Assembly (NCBI GenBank): GCA_012729785.1
Contig: JAAYCL010000027.1
Span: 1-64,000, forward strand
Length of the DNA stretch: 64,000 nt
Direction of reading: 5' to 3'
Source: Chlamydiota bacterium
GTDB taxonomy: Bacteria > Auribacterota > Tritonobacteria > UBA1439
Every line of letters begins with the position of its first letter. Positions within the stretch are counted from its first letter, which is position 1. Under the pieces are notes generated by a model, which was given only the letters and a program-made list of their open reading frames with translations, was not told the DNA's origin and did not search any database. This document shows, piece after piece, positions 32,211 to 44,471 of the stretch. Made by a program: the position numbers and the translations under genes.

Positions 32211-33260
32211 CTACCAGGCGTGCGGCAGCAGTATCCGAAGGAGTATCGCCGTGTAGAGCAGCGGCATGGCCCAGCGCGCCATCCGGTTGACCAGGTTGAG
32301 CCGCGAGTGGCGCCGGCCGTGGAGGGCGTGCTCGAGGACGCTCACCGCCGCCCCCAGCGCGAGGCTGGCGTAGGTGAGCAGGTAGACCCTGTCCACGATC
32401 GTCAGGTAGGAGATCTTCGGGATATTGAAGCTGATGGCGAACTGCGTCGCGATGCAGGCGAGGAGGCATGACAGGCACAAGGCGACGCGGTGGTACAGTT
32501 CAGGGATCTGGACGAAGTAGACGGCGAATGACATCGCCATCACCAGGACGGTGGGGAAGAAGATCCTCCAGACGTAGAAGGCGCTGTTGCGGCTGACGCT
32601 GACAAGGGCGACGAACTCCGAGTAGGTGCTCCCGAGGCCCGGGGGACTCACGGCGCGGCAGACGGTCTCCACGCCCGTCACCCGGAGGTCGTCGCAGGTA
32701 TCCCCCCCCGCGAACCCGTTCATCGATGGGTCGGTGACGAACCGCACCGCGCCGTGGTCGAAGAGGAACGACTGGAGCCGCACCTCGAGCACCTGGCGGT
32801 CGAACGGGAAGCGGCGGAAGTCGAACCGGCTCCGGAACTGCGACGTCAGGTTGATCTGGAAGGTCACGCCCCCGTCCGAAGCGATCGCAAGCGACCGGTT
32901 CTTCACCTGCGGGTTCACCGCGTTGACGAGTTCCACCTCCGGCCACCAGATCCCCTTCAACGCCTCCTCGGCGTCCCTCCCGACGAAGATGCGCCGGGCA
33001 TCCCCGTCCGCCTTCGAAACGAAGGCGAGGCGCGGGTCGTTCCAGGCGACCTGGAGGTACAGATCGGCCTCGAACGACTCCGTCCGTTCGCTCACGGAGG
33101 CGAGGTTGAGGAGGTAGAAGCCGGTTTTGACCGCGACGGGGCGGATACCGGGAGGGGCCTGCAGCGGATCGGGGGCCGCCGCGGCGGGAGCGGCGCTCCC
33201 CGGACAGCAGGCGGCGGCGAGGATGGCCGCGCACACCGCCCATGTCAGGATGCCGCGCAT
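32211..33260 (-). CDS. Pentameric ligand-gated ion channel (prokaryotic Cys-loop-receptor homologue)
   Basis: 349 residues with a signal peptide (about 1-25), an extracellular beta-sandwich (about 35-215) and four membrane helices. Family markers are clear: WWPEVELVN (loop A region), FPFDRQVLEV (the FPFD turn), RIFFPTVLVM with the M1 proline, and NIPKISYLTIVD, the M2-M3 loop. It should form a homopentameric channel in the inner membrane opened by a periplasmic ligand. At the inner mouth of M2 the acidic residue of cation channels is replaced by His-Arg, so ion selectivity is open. ATG 33260 gives a proper signal peptide. Confidence 0.92.
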   Translation of the reverse strand: MRGILTWAVCAAILAAACCPGSAAPAAAAPDPLQAPPGIRPVAVKTGFYLLNLASVSERTESFEADLYLQVAWNDPRLAFVSKADGDARRIFVGRDAEEALKGIWWPEVELVNAVNPQVKNRSLAIASDGGVTFQINLTSQFRSRFDFRRFPFDRQVLEVRLQSFLFDHGAVRFVTDPSMNGFAGGDTCDDLRVTGVETVCRAVSPPGLGSTYSEFVALVSVSRNSAFYVWRIFFPTVLVMAMSFAVYFVQIPELYHRVALCLSCLLACIATQFAISFNIPKISYLTIVDRVYLLTYASLALGAAVSVLEHALHGRRHSRLNLVNRMARWAMPLLYTAILLRILLPHAW

Positions 33261-33331
33261 GTCCGAGGGCCCCGGAGACCGATCGCCACCCATTATTGAG
33301 GGCGCCGCGCCGGGATGCAAGCGAAATAGCG

Positions 33332-33348
33332 CCCCCCCCCCCCCCCCC
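33332..33348 (+). repeat. C17 homopolymer tract in a divergent promoter region
   Basis: Seventeen consecutive C on the plus strand, 71 bases from the channel gene start and 67 bases from the dusB-like start. Long poly-C tracts vary in length by slippage, which can alter expression of flanking genes. Length may also be a sequencing artefact. Confidence 0.75.
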
Positions 33349-33400
33349 GCCGGCCGACGGAGGCAAACGGGAGGAAGAACGGCGCGTGCAGACCCCGCCG

Positions 33401-33409
33401 TGGTAGAAT
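33401..33409 (+). promoter_or_regulatory. Extended -10 element before the tRNA-dihydrouridine synthase gene
   Basis: TGGTAGAAT, with 6 bases to the ATG at 33416, so a leaderless message is expected. No clear -35. Confidence 0.45.
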
Positions 33410-33415
33410 CCCCCC

Positions 33416-34387
33416 ATGCCACTCGTCATCGGGAACCTCGCCCTGCCGTCGCGGCTCCTCCTCTCCCCCCTCGCCGGGGTGAGCGACCTGCCGTTCCGCC
33501 TCGTCGCCCGCGGCCTCGGCTGCCGGTTCGCCTTCGCCGAGATGATCAGCGCCGCCGCCCTCGTCCGCGGGAGCCCGCGCACGATCCGGATGCTCCGGAC
33601 GGAGACCGCGGACGCGCCGCTCGGCGTGCAGCTCTTCGGCGCGGACCCGGTCCAGGCCGCGCGCGCGGTGGAGATCCTCTGCGAGCGCCCCCCCGCCCTC
33701 ATCGACTTCAACGCGGCCTGCCCGGCGCGGAAGATAGTCCGGCGCGGCGAGGGGGCGGCGCTCCTCAGGGACCCGGCCGCCCTCGAAGCGATCCTCCGCG
33801 CGATGGCCTCGCGCGCCTCCGTGCCGGTGACCGTGAAGCTCCGCGCGGGCTGGGACGCCTCCTCCCCCGCGGCGCGTGAGATCGCCCTCCGGGCGCGGGA
33901 CGCCGGGGTGCGAGCGATCTTCATCCACGGGAGGACGATGCGGCAGGGGTACACCGGCTCCGTGGACTACGCGGCGATACGGGCGGTGAAGGAGGCCCTC
34001 GACATCCCGGTCGTGGCCAGCGGCGACGCGCTCACACCCGCCCTCGTGAAGCGGCTGCTCGACGAGACCGGCTGCGACGGGGCGCTGCTCGCGCGCGGGG
34101 CGCTCGGGAACCCGTGGCTGTTCGCCGAGGCGGAGACGTTCCTCTCGGGCGGGAGCGTCCCGCCGCGCCCCTCCCGCGGCGAGATCGCCGCGACGATGCT
34201 CCGCCACCTCGCCCTGCTCTGCGCGCACTACGGGGAGGGGCACGGCCCCACGGTGTTCCGCAAGCACTTCGCCTGGTACACGCGGGGGATGGCGGGGACG
34301 AAGCCGCTCAAGGAGAAGGCCTTCAAGGCGGCGACGGAAGAGGCGATGCGCGGCCTGATCGAGGCGCTGCGGGAAGGCGGCGGATGA
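33416..34387 (+). CDS. dusB: tRNA-dihydrouridine synthase
   Basis: 323 residues. FMN-dependent TIM-barrel enzyme reducing uridine to dihydrouridine in tRNA. The start LLSPLAGVSDLPFRLVAR, the catalytic cysteine motif DFNAACPARKIVRRGEGAAL and the FMN phosphate site ALLARGALGNPWLF are all present. The last 70 residues form the helical tRNA-binding domain. DusB-like by overall similarity; the exact subclass is uncertain. It converges with the TPR membrane gene, leaving a 9-base gap. Confidence 0.9.
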   Translation: MPLVIGNLALPSRLLLSPLAGVSDLPFRLVARGLGCRFAFAEMISAAALVRGSPRTIRMLRTETADAPLGVQLFGADPVQAARAVEILCERPPALIDFNAACPARKIVRRGEGAALLRDPAALEAILRAMASRASVPVTVKLRAGWDASSPAAREIALRARDAGVRAIFIHGRTMRQGYTGSVDYAAIRAVKEALDIPVVASGDALTPALVKRLLDETGCDGALLARGALGNPWLFAEAETFLSGGSVPPRPSRGEIAATMLRHLALLCAHYGEGHGPTVFRKHFAWYTRGMAGTKPLKEKAFKAATEEAMRGLIEALREGGG

Positions 34388-36463: not shown

Positions 36464-37714
36464 TCAACCGGGTGCGCCCTCGCACGCCCCCGCGATCCCC
36501 TCTCCCCAGAAGAGAACCTCGAACGGCGCGCCCGCCCCCTCGAGGATGTCGTACGCCGCGCCGAGCCCCGTCCTCCCCTCGCGGACCGGGTGCCCGACCT
36601 CGAGCAGATGCCCCGGGAGGACGCGGGCGGGCCGGATCGACGCGAGGCAGTGGCGGATCGCCTCGCGGTCGTCTGTGTCGGGGGAGACGCCGCCGCACTT
36701 GGGGATGAGGAGGTCCACCGGCCCGTCGTGCGCGACCGGCGCCGTGTAGTCGTGGTCGGCGAGGTGCAGGACGCGCGGCCCCCCGGGGAATTCCGCCTCG
36801 TAGCAGCGCATCGGCAGGGCGCGCCCGGCGCCGTAGACATGCCGTCCGGAGTGCGCGCGGACGCGCACGCCGCCGCCGAGGTCGAAAAGCTCCCCCGCGG
36901 AGGCGTGGCGCACGCCCCGCGCGAACAGGCACGAAAGCTCCGCGGGGATGACGGCCGTCTTCCCCGCCTCGCGCATCCTGGCGACCATCTCGACGTCGAG
37001 GTGGTCGAGGTGGCGGTGCGAGAGGAAGAGCAGATCGAGGCACGAGACGAGCCCCGCCGCGAGCCGTGCGGGGATATCCCACCAGACGCGCAGACCGGCG
37101 CGCGTGCTCACGACGTCGAAGCCGGCCACCGCCCCGGGTGTCTCGACGATGACGCCGTGGTTGTAGACGAGCCAGGCGCGCCACCCGGCGCGCACGCGCC
37201 CCCCCCGCAGCCGCTCCACGAGCCGGGCGAGGCGGCGCTGGAACAGCTCCCGGACCGCGGGCCGCTCCGCGGCGCCCTCCCGGAGGAGCTCCGCGTCCAG
37301 GGCGGCGAGCGCCGCCCGCCGCGGCGCGTGCCGGTCCCAGCGCGGCGGATGGGCCGCGAGCGCCGTCTCCGCCGACGCGATGAACCGTGCGTCCTCGCGC
37401 GGGCAGTCGATGTCGAAGGCGCTGTTGACCCAGCCGCCCGGGGCGGGCTCGACGCGCGGGTTCGCGGGGTCGGTGAACCACCGGCCGCCGTCCGCCACGT
37501 ACTTGTACCGGTACGTCCCGGAGACGAGCCCCGCCGTCTCCGCCGTCCACGCCCCGTCCGGGCGGCGCCGCATCGGGCCGGCGGCGGGGTTCCAGGCGTT
37601 GAACTCCCCGGCCACGCCGACTGAACGCCACCCCCCGTCCTCCAGGACGAAGATCGCGCGCCCCTCCCCGTCGGGCGCGGTGACGCCGGGGGGAGGATGC
37701 TGTATTTTCCCCAT
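36464..37714 (-). CDS. CBM48 (glycogen-binding) / metallo-beta-lactamase fold fusion protein
   Basis: 416 residues. Residues 18-102 form an AMPK-beta/CBM48 glucan-binding module (SVGVAGEFNAWNP, then GTYRYKYVADGGRWFTDPAN). After a helical linker, residues 180-416 are a UlaG-like metallo-hydrolase domain with the metal motif H233-R-H235-L-D237-H238, then HSGRH and LADHDYT. The two domains make a glucan-tethered hydrolase, probably cytoplasmic since no signal peptide is seen. It is divergent from glgP, whose -10 overlaps its own, so a role in glycogen use is likely; substrate unknown. Confidence 0.85.
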   Translation of the reverse strand: MGKIQHPPPGVTAPDGEGRAIFVLEDGGWRSVGVAGEFNAWNPAAGPMRRRPDGAWTAETAGLVSGTYRYKYVADGGRWFTDPANPRVEPAPGGWVNSAFDIDCPREDARFIASAETALAAHPPRWDRHAPRRAALAALDAELLREGAAERPAVRELFQRRLARLVERLRGGRVRAGWRAWLVYNHGVIVETPGAVAGFDVVSTRAGLRVWWDIPARLAAGLVSCLDLLFLSHRHLDHLDVEMVARMREAGKTAVIPAELSCLFARGVRHASAGELFDLGGGVRVRAHSGRHVYGAGRALPMRCYEAEFPGGPRVLHLADHDYTAPVAHDGPVDLLIPKCGGVSPDTDDREAIRHCLASIRPARVLPGHLLEVGHPVREGRTGLGAAYDILEGAGAPFEVLFWGEGIAGACEGAPG

Positions 37715-37720
37715 TCCTGA

Positions 37721-37730
37721 TGCTATCATA
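37721..37730. promoter_or_regulatory. Overlapping divergent -10 elements between the CBM48-MBL gene and glgP
   Basis: Rightward TGCTATCAT (37721-37729) and leftward TATGAT (37725-37730) share bases, so RNA polymerase can occupy only one at a time. TGTATT (37701-37706) is a possible weak -35 for glgP at 17-base spacing. Confidence 0.5.
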
Positions 37731-37761
37731 CTCTTCCGAGCCGGCACAAAGGAGCCCTTCG

Positions 37762-40323
37762 ATGAGAAAAGTCGTGCGCTACACGGTGATCCCGTCTCTC
37801 CCCGGGCGGCTGAAGCCGCTCCTCGACATCGCCTACAACCTCTGGTGGTCATGGAACCCGCGCGCGGTGGAGCTGTTCTGCGGCCTCGACCCCGCGCTCT
37901 GGGAGACGACCAGCCACAACCCGGTGAAGATGCTCGGCTCCCTGGCACCGGAGGCGATCGAGGGGCTGCTCAACAACGACGCCTACCTCGCGGGGATGGA
38001 CAGGGTGGCTGAGGAACTGTCGCGGTACCTCGCCCACGGCACCTGGTACCAGAAGGAGCACGACAGCCACCTCGGGAGGACCATCGCGTACCTTTCCGCC
38101 GAGTTCGGCCTCCACGAGTGCCTCCCGCTCTACTCGGGGGGCCTCGGCGTCCTCGCGGGCGACTACCTCAAGTCCGCCAGCGAGCTAGGACTCCCGCTGA
38201 TCGGCGTCGGGCTCGCCTACCGTTTCGGCTACTTCCGCCAGTATCTGAACCTCGACGGCTGGCAGCAGGAGACGTACTCGGAGAACGACTTCTACAACAT
38301 GCCGATGACGCTCGTGAAGGACGAGGCGGGCGCGCCGGTCGTGGTGGACGTGCCGTTCCCGGGGCGGTCGGTGTTCGTGCATATCTGGAAGGTGCAGGTG
38401 GGGCGCATCCCGCTCTACCTCCTCGACACGAACATCGAGAAGAATTCGCACGACGACCGCGCCATCACCTCCCACCTCTACGGCGGCGGACACGAGATGC
38501 GGATCAGGCAGGAGCTCGTCCTCGGGATCGGCGGGATCAAGGCCCTGGCGGCGATCGGCTGCCCCCCGACGGTCACGCACATGAACGAGGGGCACTCGGC
38601 GTTTTTGGCGCTCGAGCGCACGCGCCACCTGATGGAGAAGCACTCCCTCTCGTTCGACGAGGCGCGCGGGCTCGTCGCCGCGACGAGCATCTTCACCACG
38701 CACACGGCGGTCCCCGCCGGCATCGACCGCTTCGACGCCGACCTGGTGCGCAGATACCTCTCCGGGTACTGCAAGAAGCTCGGGCTCCCCGTCGAGACGC
38801 TCCTCGATCTCGGCCGCGAGAAACCCGGCGACGGCGGCGAGCCGTTCTCGATGGCGGTCCTCGCCTGCCGCTTCGCCTCGTCGATCAACGGCGTGAGCAA
38901 GCTCCACGGCGAGGTCTCCCGCGCAATGTGGCACCGCCTCTGGCCCGAGGTGCCTTTGGACGAGATCCCCATCGGGCACGTCAGGAACGGCATCCACACG
39001 CCCACCTGGCTCTCCGACGAGATGGTGCGCCTCTACGACCGCCACATGGGGACGCGGTGGCGCTTCGAGCCGGAGAACACGAAGGTCTGGGAACGGATCG
39101 ACAAGATCCCCGACGCCGAGCTCTGGGGGAGCTGCCAGCGCCTGCGCGAGCGGCTCGTCGGCTACGCGCGGCTGAAGCTCCAGGAGCAGCTCAAGGAGAT
39201 GGGGGCGCACAGCGCGCGCGTCGCGGAGGCCGCCGAGTCGCTCGACCCCGCGGCCCTCACCATCGGATTCGCCCGGCGCTTCGCGACCTACAAGCGCGCC
39301 AGCCTCCTCATGCGCGATCCGGACCGGCTGGCCCGCATCGTCTCCATCCCCGGCAAGCCGGTCCAGTTCGTCTTCGCCGGCAAGGCGCACCCCGCCGACG
39401 AGGGGGGGAAGCGGCTCATCAAGGAGATCGTCCACCTCTCCGAGCAGGAGCCGTTCAGGAACAAGATCATCTTCCTCGAGAACTACGACATGGACCTCGC
39501 CCGCCGCCTCGTGCAGGGGGTGGACGTGTGGCTCAACACGCCGCGCCGCCCCCTCGAGGCGAGCGGCACGAGCGGGATGAAGGTGGTCGCCAACGGGGGC
39601 CTGACGGTGAGCACGCTCGACGGCTGGTGGCCGGAGGGCTACAACGGCGAGAACGGGTGGGCCATCGGGAGCGGCGAGGAGTACGAGGACGGCGACTACC
39701 AGGACGAGGTCGAGAGCCTCGCCCTCTACGAGCTGCTGGAGAAGGAGGTCGTCCCCCTCTTCTACGACCGGGGGAAGGACGGTTTGCCGCGCGACTGGAT
39801 CGCGATGATGAAGAACTCGATCCGCACCCTCTCCCCGATCTTCAACACGAACCGGATGGCCGGGGAGTACACCGCGGCGATGTACCTGCCCGCGCTCGAC
39901 CGCTGGAAGGCCGCCTCCGCCGACGGGATGGCCGCGGCCAAGGAGTTCACCCGCTGGTGCGCCGCGATGCGCGAGCAGTGGAACGGCGTGCAAATCCGGG
40001 ACGTGAAGATCTCGGGCGTCTCGGAGCTCGGGGTGGGCTCCGAGCTCCCCGTGGAGGTCCAGGTGGAGCTCGGGAAGGTGAACCCGAAGGACGTCGCCGT
40101 GGAGCTGTTCCACGGCCCCCTGAACGCCGACGGGGAGATCGTGCACGGGAAGGCGGTCCCGCTCGCGCGCAAGAAGGCCTCCAAAAACAGGCACGAGGTC
40201 TACACCGGGGCGATCCGTTCCGCGGCGAGCGGGCAGTTCGGCTTCTCCGTCCGCGTGCTTCCGTCCCACCCGGCGCTCACGCACCGGTTCGAGACAGGCC
40301 TCCTGCACTGGTGGCACACATAG
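37762..40323 (+). CDS. glgP: Alpha-glucan (glycogen) phosphorylase, short bacterial/archaeal type
   Basis: 853 residues, GT35. The N-terminal DUF3417-like part (LKPLLDIAYNLWWSWNP) marks the TIGR02094 subtype. The body has LSAEFGLHECLPLYSGGLG, HMNEGHSAFL and the PLP site RRPLEASGTSGMKVV with the pyridoxal-binding Lys; the last 100 residues form a beta-rich domain. It releases glucose-1-phosphate from alpha-1,4-glucans. ATG 37762 has AAAGGAG (37748-37754) upstream. Confidence 0.94.
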   Translation: MRKVVRYTVIPSLPGRLKPLLDIAYNLWWSWNPRAVELFCGLDPALWETTSHNPVKMLGSLAPEAIEGLLNNDAYLAGMDRVAEELSRYLAHGTWYQKEHDSHLGRTIAYLSAEFGLHECLPLYSGGLGVLAGDYLKSASELGLPLIGVGLAYRFGYFRQYLNLDGWQQETYSENDFYNMPMTLVKDEAGAPVVVDVPFPGRSVFVHIWKVQVGRIPLYLLDTNIEKNSHDDRAITSHLYGGGHEMRIRQELVLGIGGIKALAAIGCPPTVTHMNEGHSAFLALERTRHLMEKHSLSFDEARGLVAATSIFTTHTAVPAGIDRFDADLVRRYLSGYCKKLGLPVETLLDLGREKPGDGGEPFSMAVLACRFASSINGVSKLHGEVSRAMWHRLWPEVPLDEIPIGHVRNGIHTPTWLSDEMVRLYDRHMGTRWRFEPENTKVWERIDKIPDAELWGSCQRLRERLVGYARLKLQEQLKEMGAHSARVAEAAESLDPAALTIGFARRFATYKRASLLMRDPDRLARIVSIPGKPVQFVFAGKAHPADEGGKRLIKEIVHLSEQEPFRNKIIFLENYDMDLARRLVQGVDVWLNTPRRPLEASGTSGMKVVANGGLTVSTLDGWWPEGYNGENGWAIGSGEEYEDGDYQDEVESLALYELLEKEVVPLFYDRGKDGLPRDWIAMMKNSIRTLSPIFNTNRMAGEYTAAMYLPALDRWKAASADGMAAAKEFTRWCAAMREQWNGVQIRDVKISGVSELGVGSELPVEVQVELGKVNPKDVAVELFHGPLNADGEIVHGKAVPLARKKASKNRHEVYTGAIRSAASGQFGFSVRVLPSHPALTHRFETGLLHWWHT

Positions 40324-40686
40324 TGTCGGGGTCGGACCACGATATCCTGTTGCACGGGAATTCGTTAAGACTAATTTAGCCCCTAAAAACAGCCTTAGCG
40401 GCGATTTTGGGGCCCGAAAAACGCCTCTAAGACATCATCCGTATCGCCGATGGGCACCGGTCCGCGCCGTGGATGGCGCCGGGCACGCCCGGCAAACTTC
40501 GCCACGCACGTCGATGAGGGGCCCCGGGGCGCGAAGCGCCGCAGGAACGGGCTGTCGAACGGGCTTGCGGATCCTCCCCCGAAGGGGCATTATCGCCGCA
40601 GGCCGGTCACGGCGGGGATCCCGGGAAAGGCGCCGGGCGGAATGCGCCGCCGCGGCGCGTCCCTGCACACGGCGCGGGGGCTTCAG
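40324..40686. other. Intergenic region with hairpins after glgP
   Basis: No gene. A stem GCCCCTAAAA...TTTTGGGGC (40379-40413), with inner GCC/GGC pairing, follows glgP but is not succeeded by a T-run. A second stem GCCGGGC-AC-GCCCGGC lies at 40478-40493. The frame of the downstream gene is open back to 40450, but that extension is basic and not family-like. Confidence 0.45.
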
Positions 40687-41664
40687 ATGCTGGGCGCGAT
40701 CGCGGGCGATATCATCGGCTCCGTCCACGAGTTCACCTGCACCAGGACGAAAGAATTCGAGCTGTTCGCCTCGAACTGCTTCTTCACGGACGACACGGTG
40801 CTGACGGTCGCGCTCGCCGACTCCATCCTCACCAATACTCCGTACGAGACCAACCTCAGACGCTTCTTCCGCCTCTACCCCGACCGCGGCTACGGCGGCA
40901 GCTTCCACCATTGGGCGATGGGCAGGAAGAAGAAGCCGTACGGGAGCTGGGGGAACGGCGCGGCGATGCGCATCAGCCCCGCCGGCTTCGCCTACGACGA
41001 CCTCGATACGGTGCTCCGGAAGGCGGAGGAGTTCACCGCCGTCACGCACAGCCACCCTGAGGGGATCAAGGGCGGCCAGGCGACCGCCGCCGCGGTCTTC
41101 CTCGCCCGGACGGGCGCCTCGCGGGAGCGGATCAAAAGCTTCATCGAGGATCGGTTCCAGTACGACCTCGGCGCGCATGTCGACGAGATCCGTCCCTCCT
41201 ACGGATTCGACGCCTCCTGCGAGGGCACGGTGCCGCAGGCGATCCGGGCGTTCATCGACTCGACCGGCTTCGAGGACGCCGTCAGGACCGCGGTGTCGCT
41301 GGGCGGCGACGCCGACACGCTGGCGTGCATCACCGGCGGCATCGCGCAGGCGTTCTACGGAGGCGTGCCCGAACCGATCGCGGACAGGGTGTACGGGATC
41401 CTCGACGAGCGGCTCGGCGGGATCACGCGGGAGTTCACGGCGAGATACTGCGCCCCGTTTGGCGGCAGGGCGGAGGCGATGCGCGACGCGGAAACGCCCC
41501 CTTCCGAGGGCGCAGAAACGCGGGAAGACGAACCGTCGAAGCGGCGGGACGACGGGCGCTGTTGCTGCCCGCGCTGCGGCCTGACCGGCACGCGGGAGGA
41601 TTTCGGGGGGGACCCGGGGAGAGGCGCCCGGTGCCCGGGATGCGGGAGAAAGATCCCGTTCTGA
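40687..41664 (+). CDS. ADP-ribosylglycohydrolase family protein with C-terminal zinc ribbon
   Basis: 325 residues. The ARH/DraG fold begins MLGAIAGDIIGSVHEF; its metal-binding acidic residues are seen in FFTDDTVLTVALADS and SLGGDADTLACITGGIA. These enzymes remove ADP-ribose from proteins or nucleic acids with two metal ions. The last about 35 residues add CCCPRCG and RCPGCGRK, two CxxC knuckles of a zinc ribbon, absent from plain family members. ATG 40687 is chosen because the conserved domain begins exactly there. It stands alone; target unknown. Confidence 0.88.
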   Translation: MLGAIAGDIIGSVHEFTCTRTKEFELFASNCFFTDDTVLTVALADSILTNTPYETNLRRFFRLYPDRGYGGSFHHWAMGRKKKPYGSWGNGAAMRISPAGFAYDDLDTVLRKAEEFTAVTHSHPEGIKGGQATAAAVFLARTGASRERIKSFIEDRFQYDLGAHVDEIRPSYGFDASCEGTVPQAIRAFIDSTGFEDAVRTAVSLGGDADTLACITGGIAQAFYGGVPEPIADRVYGILDERLGGITREFTARYCAPFGGRAEAMRDAETPPSEGAETREDEPSKRRDDGRCCCPRCGLTGTREDFGGDPGRGARCPGCGRKIPF

Positions 41665-41674
41665 CGCCGGGCCG

Positions 41675-42637
41675 TCACGCCCGCGCGGCAACGCGCGCGC
41701 GCCACCAGTCGAGGATGAGGCGGAGCGTCTCCTCGATCGGGTGCTCCGGTCTCCACCCCGTCGCCGCGGCGAATTTCGCGGAGTCCCCGTAGAGGACCGG
41801 GGTGTCGGATTTCCTGAGGCGCGCCGGGTCCCGCCGCACCTCGATCCGCGCGGAGGAGAGGGCGATGAGCATCTCGAGCATCCGCCCCACGCGGAGGGGG
41901 CGCCCGGCGCCGATGTTGTAGATCCCCCCCGGCGCGCATCTCTCCGCGGCGAGGGCGTACGCGCGGACCATGTCGCGCACGTCCGTGAAGTCCCGCTCCG
42001 CGTCGAGGTTCCCCACCGAGACGACCGGCTCCTTCATCCCCGCCTCGATCTCGGCGACCTGCCGCGCGAACGACGAGGCGACGAACGAGGGGGCCTGTCT
42101 GGGGCCGATATGGTTGAACGGCCGCAACACCACCGCGGACAGGCCGTGCGCCCTCGCGTAGAAGCGGACAGCCTCCTCGGCGCAGAGCTTCGTGAACGCG
42201 TAGACGTTCGCGGGGGCGGGGCGGCGGTCCTCGCGGACCGGCATCCCCTCGGGGGGGACCTTCCCGTAGACCTCGGAGGAACTCGCCAGGATGAAGCGCG
42301 CCGCGGGGGCGTGCCGGCGGCAGGCCTCGAGCAGGACGAGCGTCCCCCCGGCGTTCACGTCCAGCGCCTCACGCGGGGAATCCTCGACGGAGGGGAGGAA
42401 GGTGACCGCGGCGAGGTGGAAGACCGCGTCCGGCGCAACGTCCGCCACCGCCCGCCCCACCGCGGCCGCGTCGAGGATATCCGCCTTTTCAACGCGCACG
42501 GGGCCGATCCCGTCGAGGTTGGCGCACGGGGCGCCGGGGCGCTCGATGCCGGAGACTCCCCATCCGCGCGAAAGGAGATGCGCGGCGAGGTGGCTCCCGG
42601 CGAAGCCGGCGATGCCGGTGATGAGAGCGCGTTTCAT
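41675..42637 (-). CDS. rmd: GDP-4-dehydro-6-deoxy-D-mannose reductase-like SDR
   Basis: 320 residues. NAD(P) motif ITGIAGFAGSHLA at the N-terminus; catalytic SSSEVYG and YAFTK (YxxxK). The stretch RPFNHIGPRQAPSFVASSFARQ is typical of Rmd-type reductases that convert GDP-4-keto-6-deoxymannose to GDP-rhamnose. It lies downstream of gmd in the same direction, giving substrate supply. An alternative is another GDP-sugar epimerase-reductase. Confidence 0.82.
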   Translation of the reverse strand: MKRALITGIAGFAGSHLAAHLLSRGWGVSGIERPGAPCANLDGIGPVRVEKADILDAAAVGRAVADVAPDAVFHLAAVTFLPSVEDSPREALDVNAGGTLVLLEACRRHAPAARFILASSSEVYGKVPPEGMPVREDRRPAPANVYAFTKLCAEEAVRFYARAHGLSAVVLRPFNHIGPRQAPSFVASSFARQVAEIEAGMKEPVVSVGNLDAERDFTDVRDMVRAYALAAERCAPGGIYNIGAGRPLRVGRMLEMLIALSSARIEVRRDPARLRKSDTPVLYGDSAKFAAATGWRPEHPIEETLRLILDWWRARVAARA

Positions 42638-42748
42638 CGGATCACGCCGTTGTCACGGGGCGGGTGGAACAGGTGAGGGCGGAAGCGCCCCGTGCCGCCT
42701 TCCGCCGTGCGTCGTTCGTGGGAGACCATGCTCCGCGGCGCGGCGCCG

Positions 42749-44471
<1,723 letters not shown>

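Follow-up and report, generated by a model that had tools for sequence, protein, structure and literature searches.

CBM48 joined to a metallo-beta-lactamase fold beside glgP: a candidate glycogen-tethered metallohydrolase

Glycogen- and starch-editing enzymes, the glucan phosphatases, are known from eukaryotes, and to our knowledge little is known about glycogen-active enzymes in bacteria beyond the GlgA/B/C/P/X set. SEX4/DSP4 and the laforin-type phosphatases combine a CBM48 or CBM20 with a dual-specificity phosphatase. The protein analysed here (P0001), encoded in a 64,000-nucleotide stretch of DNA from a Chlamydiota bacterium (the window), resembles them in linking a carbohydrate-binding module to a small hydrolase that would be aimed at storage glucan. 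It differs in being bacterial, in having a metal-dependent metallo-beta-lactamase (MBL) fold and in lacking the Cx5R phosphatase; a search for a dual-specificity phosphatase domain gave no phosphatase Pfam match, and phosphatase activity of P0001 is hypothetical. The CBM of the AMPK beta subunit (PF16561) has the same W/K/W/N contacts as P0001, which however has no Pfam match to the kinase-interacting C-terminal domain of that subunit, is without a kinase partner and carries its own hydrolase. The CBM48 modules of bacterial GlgB, GlgX and pullulanase show the same fold on glycogen enzymes, but their partner is a GH13 domain whereas in P0001 it is an MBL. UlaG/UPF0173 (COG2220-type) MBL hydrolases share with P0001 the HxHxDH motif, the third His, the Asp and the last His, and there is detectable profile similarity to TM1162; the P0001 family is set apart by an extra N-terminal segment and the motifs ADHDYT and PGHLxELGHP...WGE. 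The novelty is the domain architecture, built from known kinds of domain. The pairing is apparently undescribed: in the literature collection searched, no paper joins CBM48 with a metallo-beta-lactamase, and nine papers that mention both CBM48 and lactamase deal, judging from title and abstract, with other subjects than such a fusion.

Domain architecture and conserved residues

The features of the locus are collected in Table 1. Pfam searches place AMPK1_CBM/CBM_48 at residues 28-97 of P0001 and Lactamase_B_2/B_3 at residues about 220-370. AMPK1_CBM (PF16561) reaches 29.4 bits in the genome scan, above the curated cut-off, and 26.0 bits in the whole-protein scan, just below it; for CBM_48 (PF02922) the corresponding values are 23.4 bits (above) and 20.5 bits (just below), while Lactamase_B_2 and Lactamase_B_3 match the C-terminal part with E 3.5e-5 and 2.2e-4, slightly below their cut-offs. 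As these scores are near the cut-offs, relatives were needed for the domain assignment. A structure model from the single sequence was uninformative on the fold (mean pLDDT 38). The helicity of residues about 106-173 is read from the sequence together with a low-confidence model; within this segment R132 is near-invariant in alignments, CBM-free relatives included. No signal peptide is evident at the N-terminus of the CBM-fused form, unlike in CBM-free relatives, and PADLOC gave no match for P0001.

Table 1. Positions, in the window, of the fusion gene, its predicted domains and metal ligands, and the divergent phosphorylase gene
Feature	Position	Strand	Basis or remark
CBM48-MBL fusion gene (P0001, 416 aa)	36464..37714	-	Uninterrupted open frame, Pfam matches, CBM-half ortholog in sister species G001
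CBM48/AMPK1_CBM domain, residues about 13-103	37406..37678	-	Pfam, contact residues
MBL-family N-terminal segment (residues about 106-173), probably helical	37196..37399	-	Alignments; helicity predicted
Metallo-beta-lactamase-fold core, residues 174-408	36491..37195	-	Pfam, profile, hhalign, ligands
Metal motif HRHLDH, residues 233-238	37001..37018	-	ORF translation, alignment
Predicted metal ligand H292 (third His)	36839..36841	-	Alignment, hhalign
Predicted bridging ligand D320 (motif ADHDYT)	36755..36757	-	Alignment, hhalign
Predicted metal ligand H369 (motif PGHLLEVGHP)	36608..36610	-	Alignment, hhalign
Divergent intergenic region (47 bp) between the P0001 gene and glgP	37715..37761	.	
Alpha-glucan phosphorylase gene glgP (DUF3417 + phosphorylase, TIGR02094)	37762..40323	+	AAGGAG ribosome-binding site just upstream

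At the level of sequence and profile the MBL assignment is secured by two comparisons: a profile of the MBL parts of the family matches the UPF0173 MBL structures 3x2y/3x2z in the PDB (E 2.8e-5), and hhalign, at 95.7% probability, brings every ligand into register with those of a UlaG/UPF0173-type protein. The metal motif is intact, as the initial annotation had stated, and with the three later positions P0001 has all seven predicted ligands of an MBL site (H233, H235, D237, H238, H292, D320, H369). The label 'UlaG-like' holds at the superfamily level but not beyond, as an NCBIfam search with P0001 (E up to 1) gave no UlaG (L-ascorbate-6-phosphate lactonase) model. The P0001 MBL is not UlaG itself; its branch is divergent, for the most part uncharacterised, and includes CBM-free, apparently secreted forms. 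A core of Y184, E372, H375, R381, W403 and E405 is common to the P0001 family and these relatives, so that the MBL chemistry may be older than a role on glucans. In the H292 column the secreted clade has Q. Seven of eight CBM-fused MBLs, G431 being the exception, have the basic residues R205 and K339, which are absent from the CBM-less G006 and G161 of that clade and could line an anionic pocket or an interdomain face.

On the CBM side, the glucan contacts, which we take to be W100, K126, W133 and N150 in AMPK-beta1 numbering, have W/K/W/N at all four equivalents in P0001 and in its sister G001. One of the predicted contacts in P0001 is W41. Among solved structures the AMPK-beta CBMs are nearest to the P0001 CBM by sequence, with SEX4 among the weak matches; weak GlgB matches were also obtained. 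The contacts are kept in seven of the nine fusion sequences at an overall identity of about 30%; in G072 and G354 the first W is retained and the equivalents of K126, W133 and N150 are lost.

Recurrence of the fusion across phyla

A survey with the MBL profile gave matches in 17 of 384 genomes. CBM48-MBL fusions occur in two phyla outside that of the window, one represented by G072 and G354 and the other by G111 and G252. Longer subtilase-CBM48-MBL proteins of about 930 aa (L064:5806-8604, L065:1754-4555, L104:9472-12252) occur in G370 and G239 of a third phylum and in G431, which is counted as a fourth by its absence from the phylum listings. Including that of the window, the total is five phyla, and in other phyla the architecture is found with 28-35% identity along the full length. 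G431 was the one new fusion genome from surveys centred elsewhere, which mostly re-sampled the same cross-phylum set. The fusion is rare but recurrent. Profile searches of genome contigs recovered CBM48 domains on unrelated proteins and no additional CBM-MBL, scans of viral contigs found no relatives, and a plasmid search found none. The domain pairing, as initially proposed, is borne out by the Pfam matches, the UPF0173 profile match and hhalign. Since the CBM half and glgP are kept together in the sister species and the architecture recurs in other phyla, comparison of the predicted proteins confirms that the fusion is real, beyond chance.

Maximum-likelihood analysis places the CBM-fused sequences, and with them the CBM-less G006 and G161, apart from the secreted group, which itself has a support of 89. 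Deep inside the CBM-fused clade the branches have weak support (49-56), and for this reason one fusion followed by losses and several independent fusions cannot be told apart. The N-termini of the CBM-free relatives mostly look secreted. One CBM-free member of the family is fused to a HAD hydrolase domain (L031:997-2610 / L070:2011-3624).

Divergent glgP and gene neighbourhoods

The head-to-head arrangement with glycogen phosphorylase is as first described, the two genes lying 47 bp apart on opposite strands and the glgP product matching TIGR02094 with 866.8 bits. Between them, TATCATA at 37724-37730 is symmetric, -10-like and readable on both strands. TATTATA is found at the same position in G001, and TATTATA or TACTATA precedes glgP in the family members G002 and G004, in which glgP is present and the fusion was not found. 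A consensus scan for full sigma-70 sites in the 47-bp region found none. We infer from TATCATA that the P0001 gene and glgP may share promotion. In G001 the CBM half lies at the same place beside the same glgP with 57-59% identity over about 147 aa, the contig stopping within the fusion gene such that the synteny covers the CBM half only. The window genome, which is 97% complete, encodes a full glgA (558 bits) and one glgP, and genome scans with PF16561 and PF02922 detected P0001 as its only CBM48/AMPK1_CBM domain.

Directly downstream of glgP is a gene (window 40450-41664, +) whose product belongs to the ADP-ribosylglycohydrolase family and has a C-terminal tail rich in Cys. The proximity of glgP to two GDP-mannose-dehydratase-like genes (window 41675-43990; L108; L109) is kept in G004 and G006, where the fusion was not found. 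Elsewhere, the window encodes a pentameric ligand-gated ion channel homolog (32211-33422, -; Neur_chan_LBD E 7.7e-20, Neur_chan_memb E 5.3e-4).

The adjacency to glgP in the initial annotation stands for the window genus and is confined to it; in the other fusion lineages the neighbours differ and glgP is on another contig. Co-occurrence with phosphorylase, which that annotation proposed as a check, is seen in every fusion genome (above the cut-off in all but G431), but most control genomes also have a phosphorylase-family match, and at this high base rate it is weak evidence. In G252 the fusion gene has transglycosylase and SpoIID neighbours.

Possible functions and significance

We tentatively favour, at a little under even confidence, a cytoplasmic glycogen-tethered metallohydrolase that is co-placed with glycogen breakdown in the window genus. 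The N-terminal CBM48 would hold a soluble cytoplasmic metallohydrolase on glycogen or long malto-oligosaccharides, and its head-to-head placement makes joint expression with the breakdown pathway probable. With what are probably two metals, the MBL site would hydrolyse a small ester or lactone, probably anionic, on the glucan or close to it, for example on a phosphorylated or oxidised glucosyl unit, in a role of clean-up or repair. A glucan-tethered hydrolase, the function first suggested for P0001, appears the best reading because its CBM keeps the glucan-contact residues; from the sequence we infer glucan binding, metal binding and co-expression, whereas the substrate class is guesswork: phosphoester or lactone is suggested by the fold family and the basic residues, and the damaged glucosyl unit of the initial annotation is equally speculative. 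The architecture, the ligand set, the contacts, the presence of both glgA and glgP, and a CBM half that sits beside glgP in two species speak in favour. So do the status of P0001 as the single CBM48 detected in the genome, the recurrence of the fusion in five phyla, the absence of an evident signal peptide and the R205 and K339 residues of the CBM-fused MBLs.

Against the tethered hydrolase stand the MBL core shared with apparently secreted CBM-free relatives, the high base rate of phosphorylase, the sister contig that stops before the MBL half, the absence of glgP adjacency outside the window genus and the situation in G072 and G354. The last of these bears on an alternative that we regard as unlikely but worth weighing, namely that the substrate is unrelated to glycogen and the CBM48 serves as an E-set module that gives stability, dimerisation or weak sugar binding. 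In G072 (L058:6845-10470) the fusion gene lies between cbiG and metX and in G354 (L059:8541-11034) it adjoins cbiG, in both with a CBM devoid of three of the four contacts; in G111 it follows hemA, with an AP-endonuclease-like gene overlapping downstream; and the CBM-free members G006 and G161 exist. This alternative is countered by the conservation of the contacts in most of the fusions despite their low overall identity and by the divergent glgP in the window genus. In the G072/G354 phylum the adjacency to cbiG and metX may point to a cobalamin-related role. A general tetrapyrrole or cobalamin role suggested by cbiG and hemA was not adopted, as it concerns only two lineages and none of these genes lies around the window gene.

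Rather less probable is a glycogen-sensing regulator, in which the CBM48 would report glycogen status as in AMPK-beta and gate an MBL whose target is a soluble signal or metabolite, so that metabolism would be regulated and the glucan not edited. The nearness of the P0001 CBM to AMPK-beta CBMs fits such a function, and so do the subtilase fusions of three genomes, where CBM48-MBL follows the protease as one unit and, with its metal site degraded, has the look of a module for targeting or sensing. The subtilase motif GTSFGAP/GTSFSAP is retained there while the metal site is partly or largely lost, two ligands in G370 and G239 (H233Q, H235L) and four in G431 (H235L, H292Y, D320E, H369C); two of the three proteins have a phage-integrase-like N-terminal segment. 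However, Pfam recognised no signalling gene in the immediate neighbourhood of P0001, and the stand-alone fusions (window, G072, G354, G252, G111) keep the complete metal set, which argues that catalysis is under selection. A chance fusion or annotation artefact, to which the fragmented, probably metagenome-assembled genomes and the near-cut-off Pfam scores might point, is extremely improbable, being refuted by the recurrence of the fusion, the same gene arrangement in the sister species and the same full-length architecture in other phyla.

For the window organism, a CBM48-MBL fusion head-to-head with glgP in a glycogen-metabolising genome provides a concrete and cheaply testable candidate. 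The broader proposal, which we consider doubtful at present, is that CBM48-MBL proteins form an undescribed family of glycogen-targeted metallohydrolases, sporadic across bacterial phyla, that would edit or repair glycogen as a prokaryotic functional counterpart of SEX4 and laforin, and that in some lineages became a glycogen-directed protease module through subtilase fusion and loss of the metal site. The protease-CBM48-pseudoMBL proteins suggest turnover of proteins at glycogen particles.
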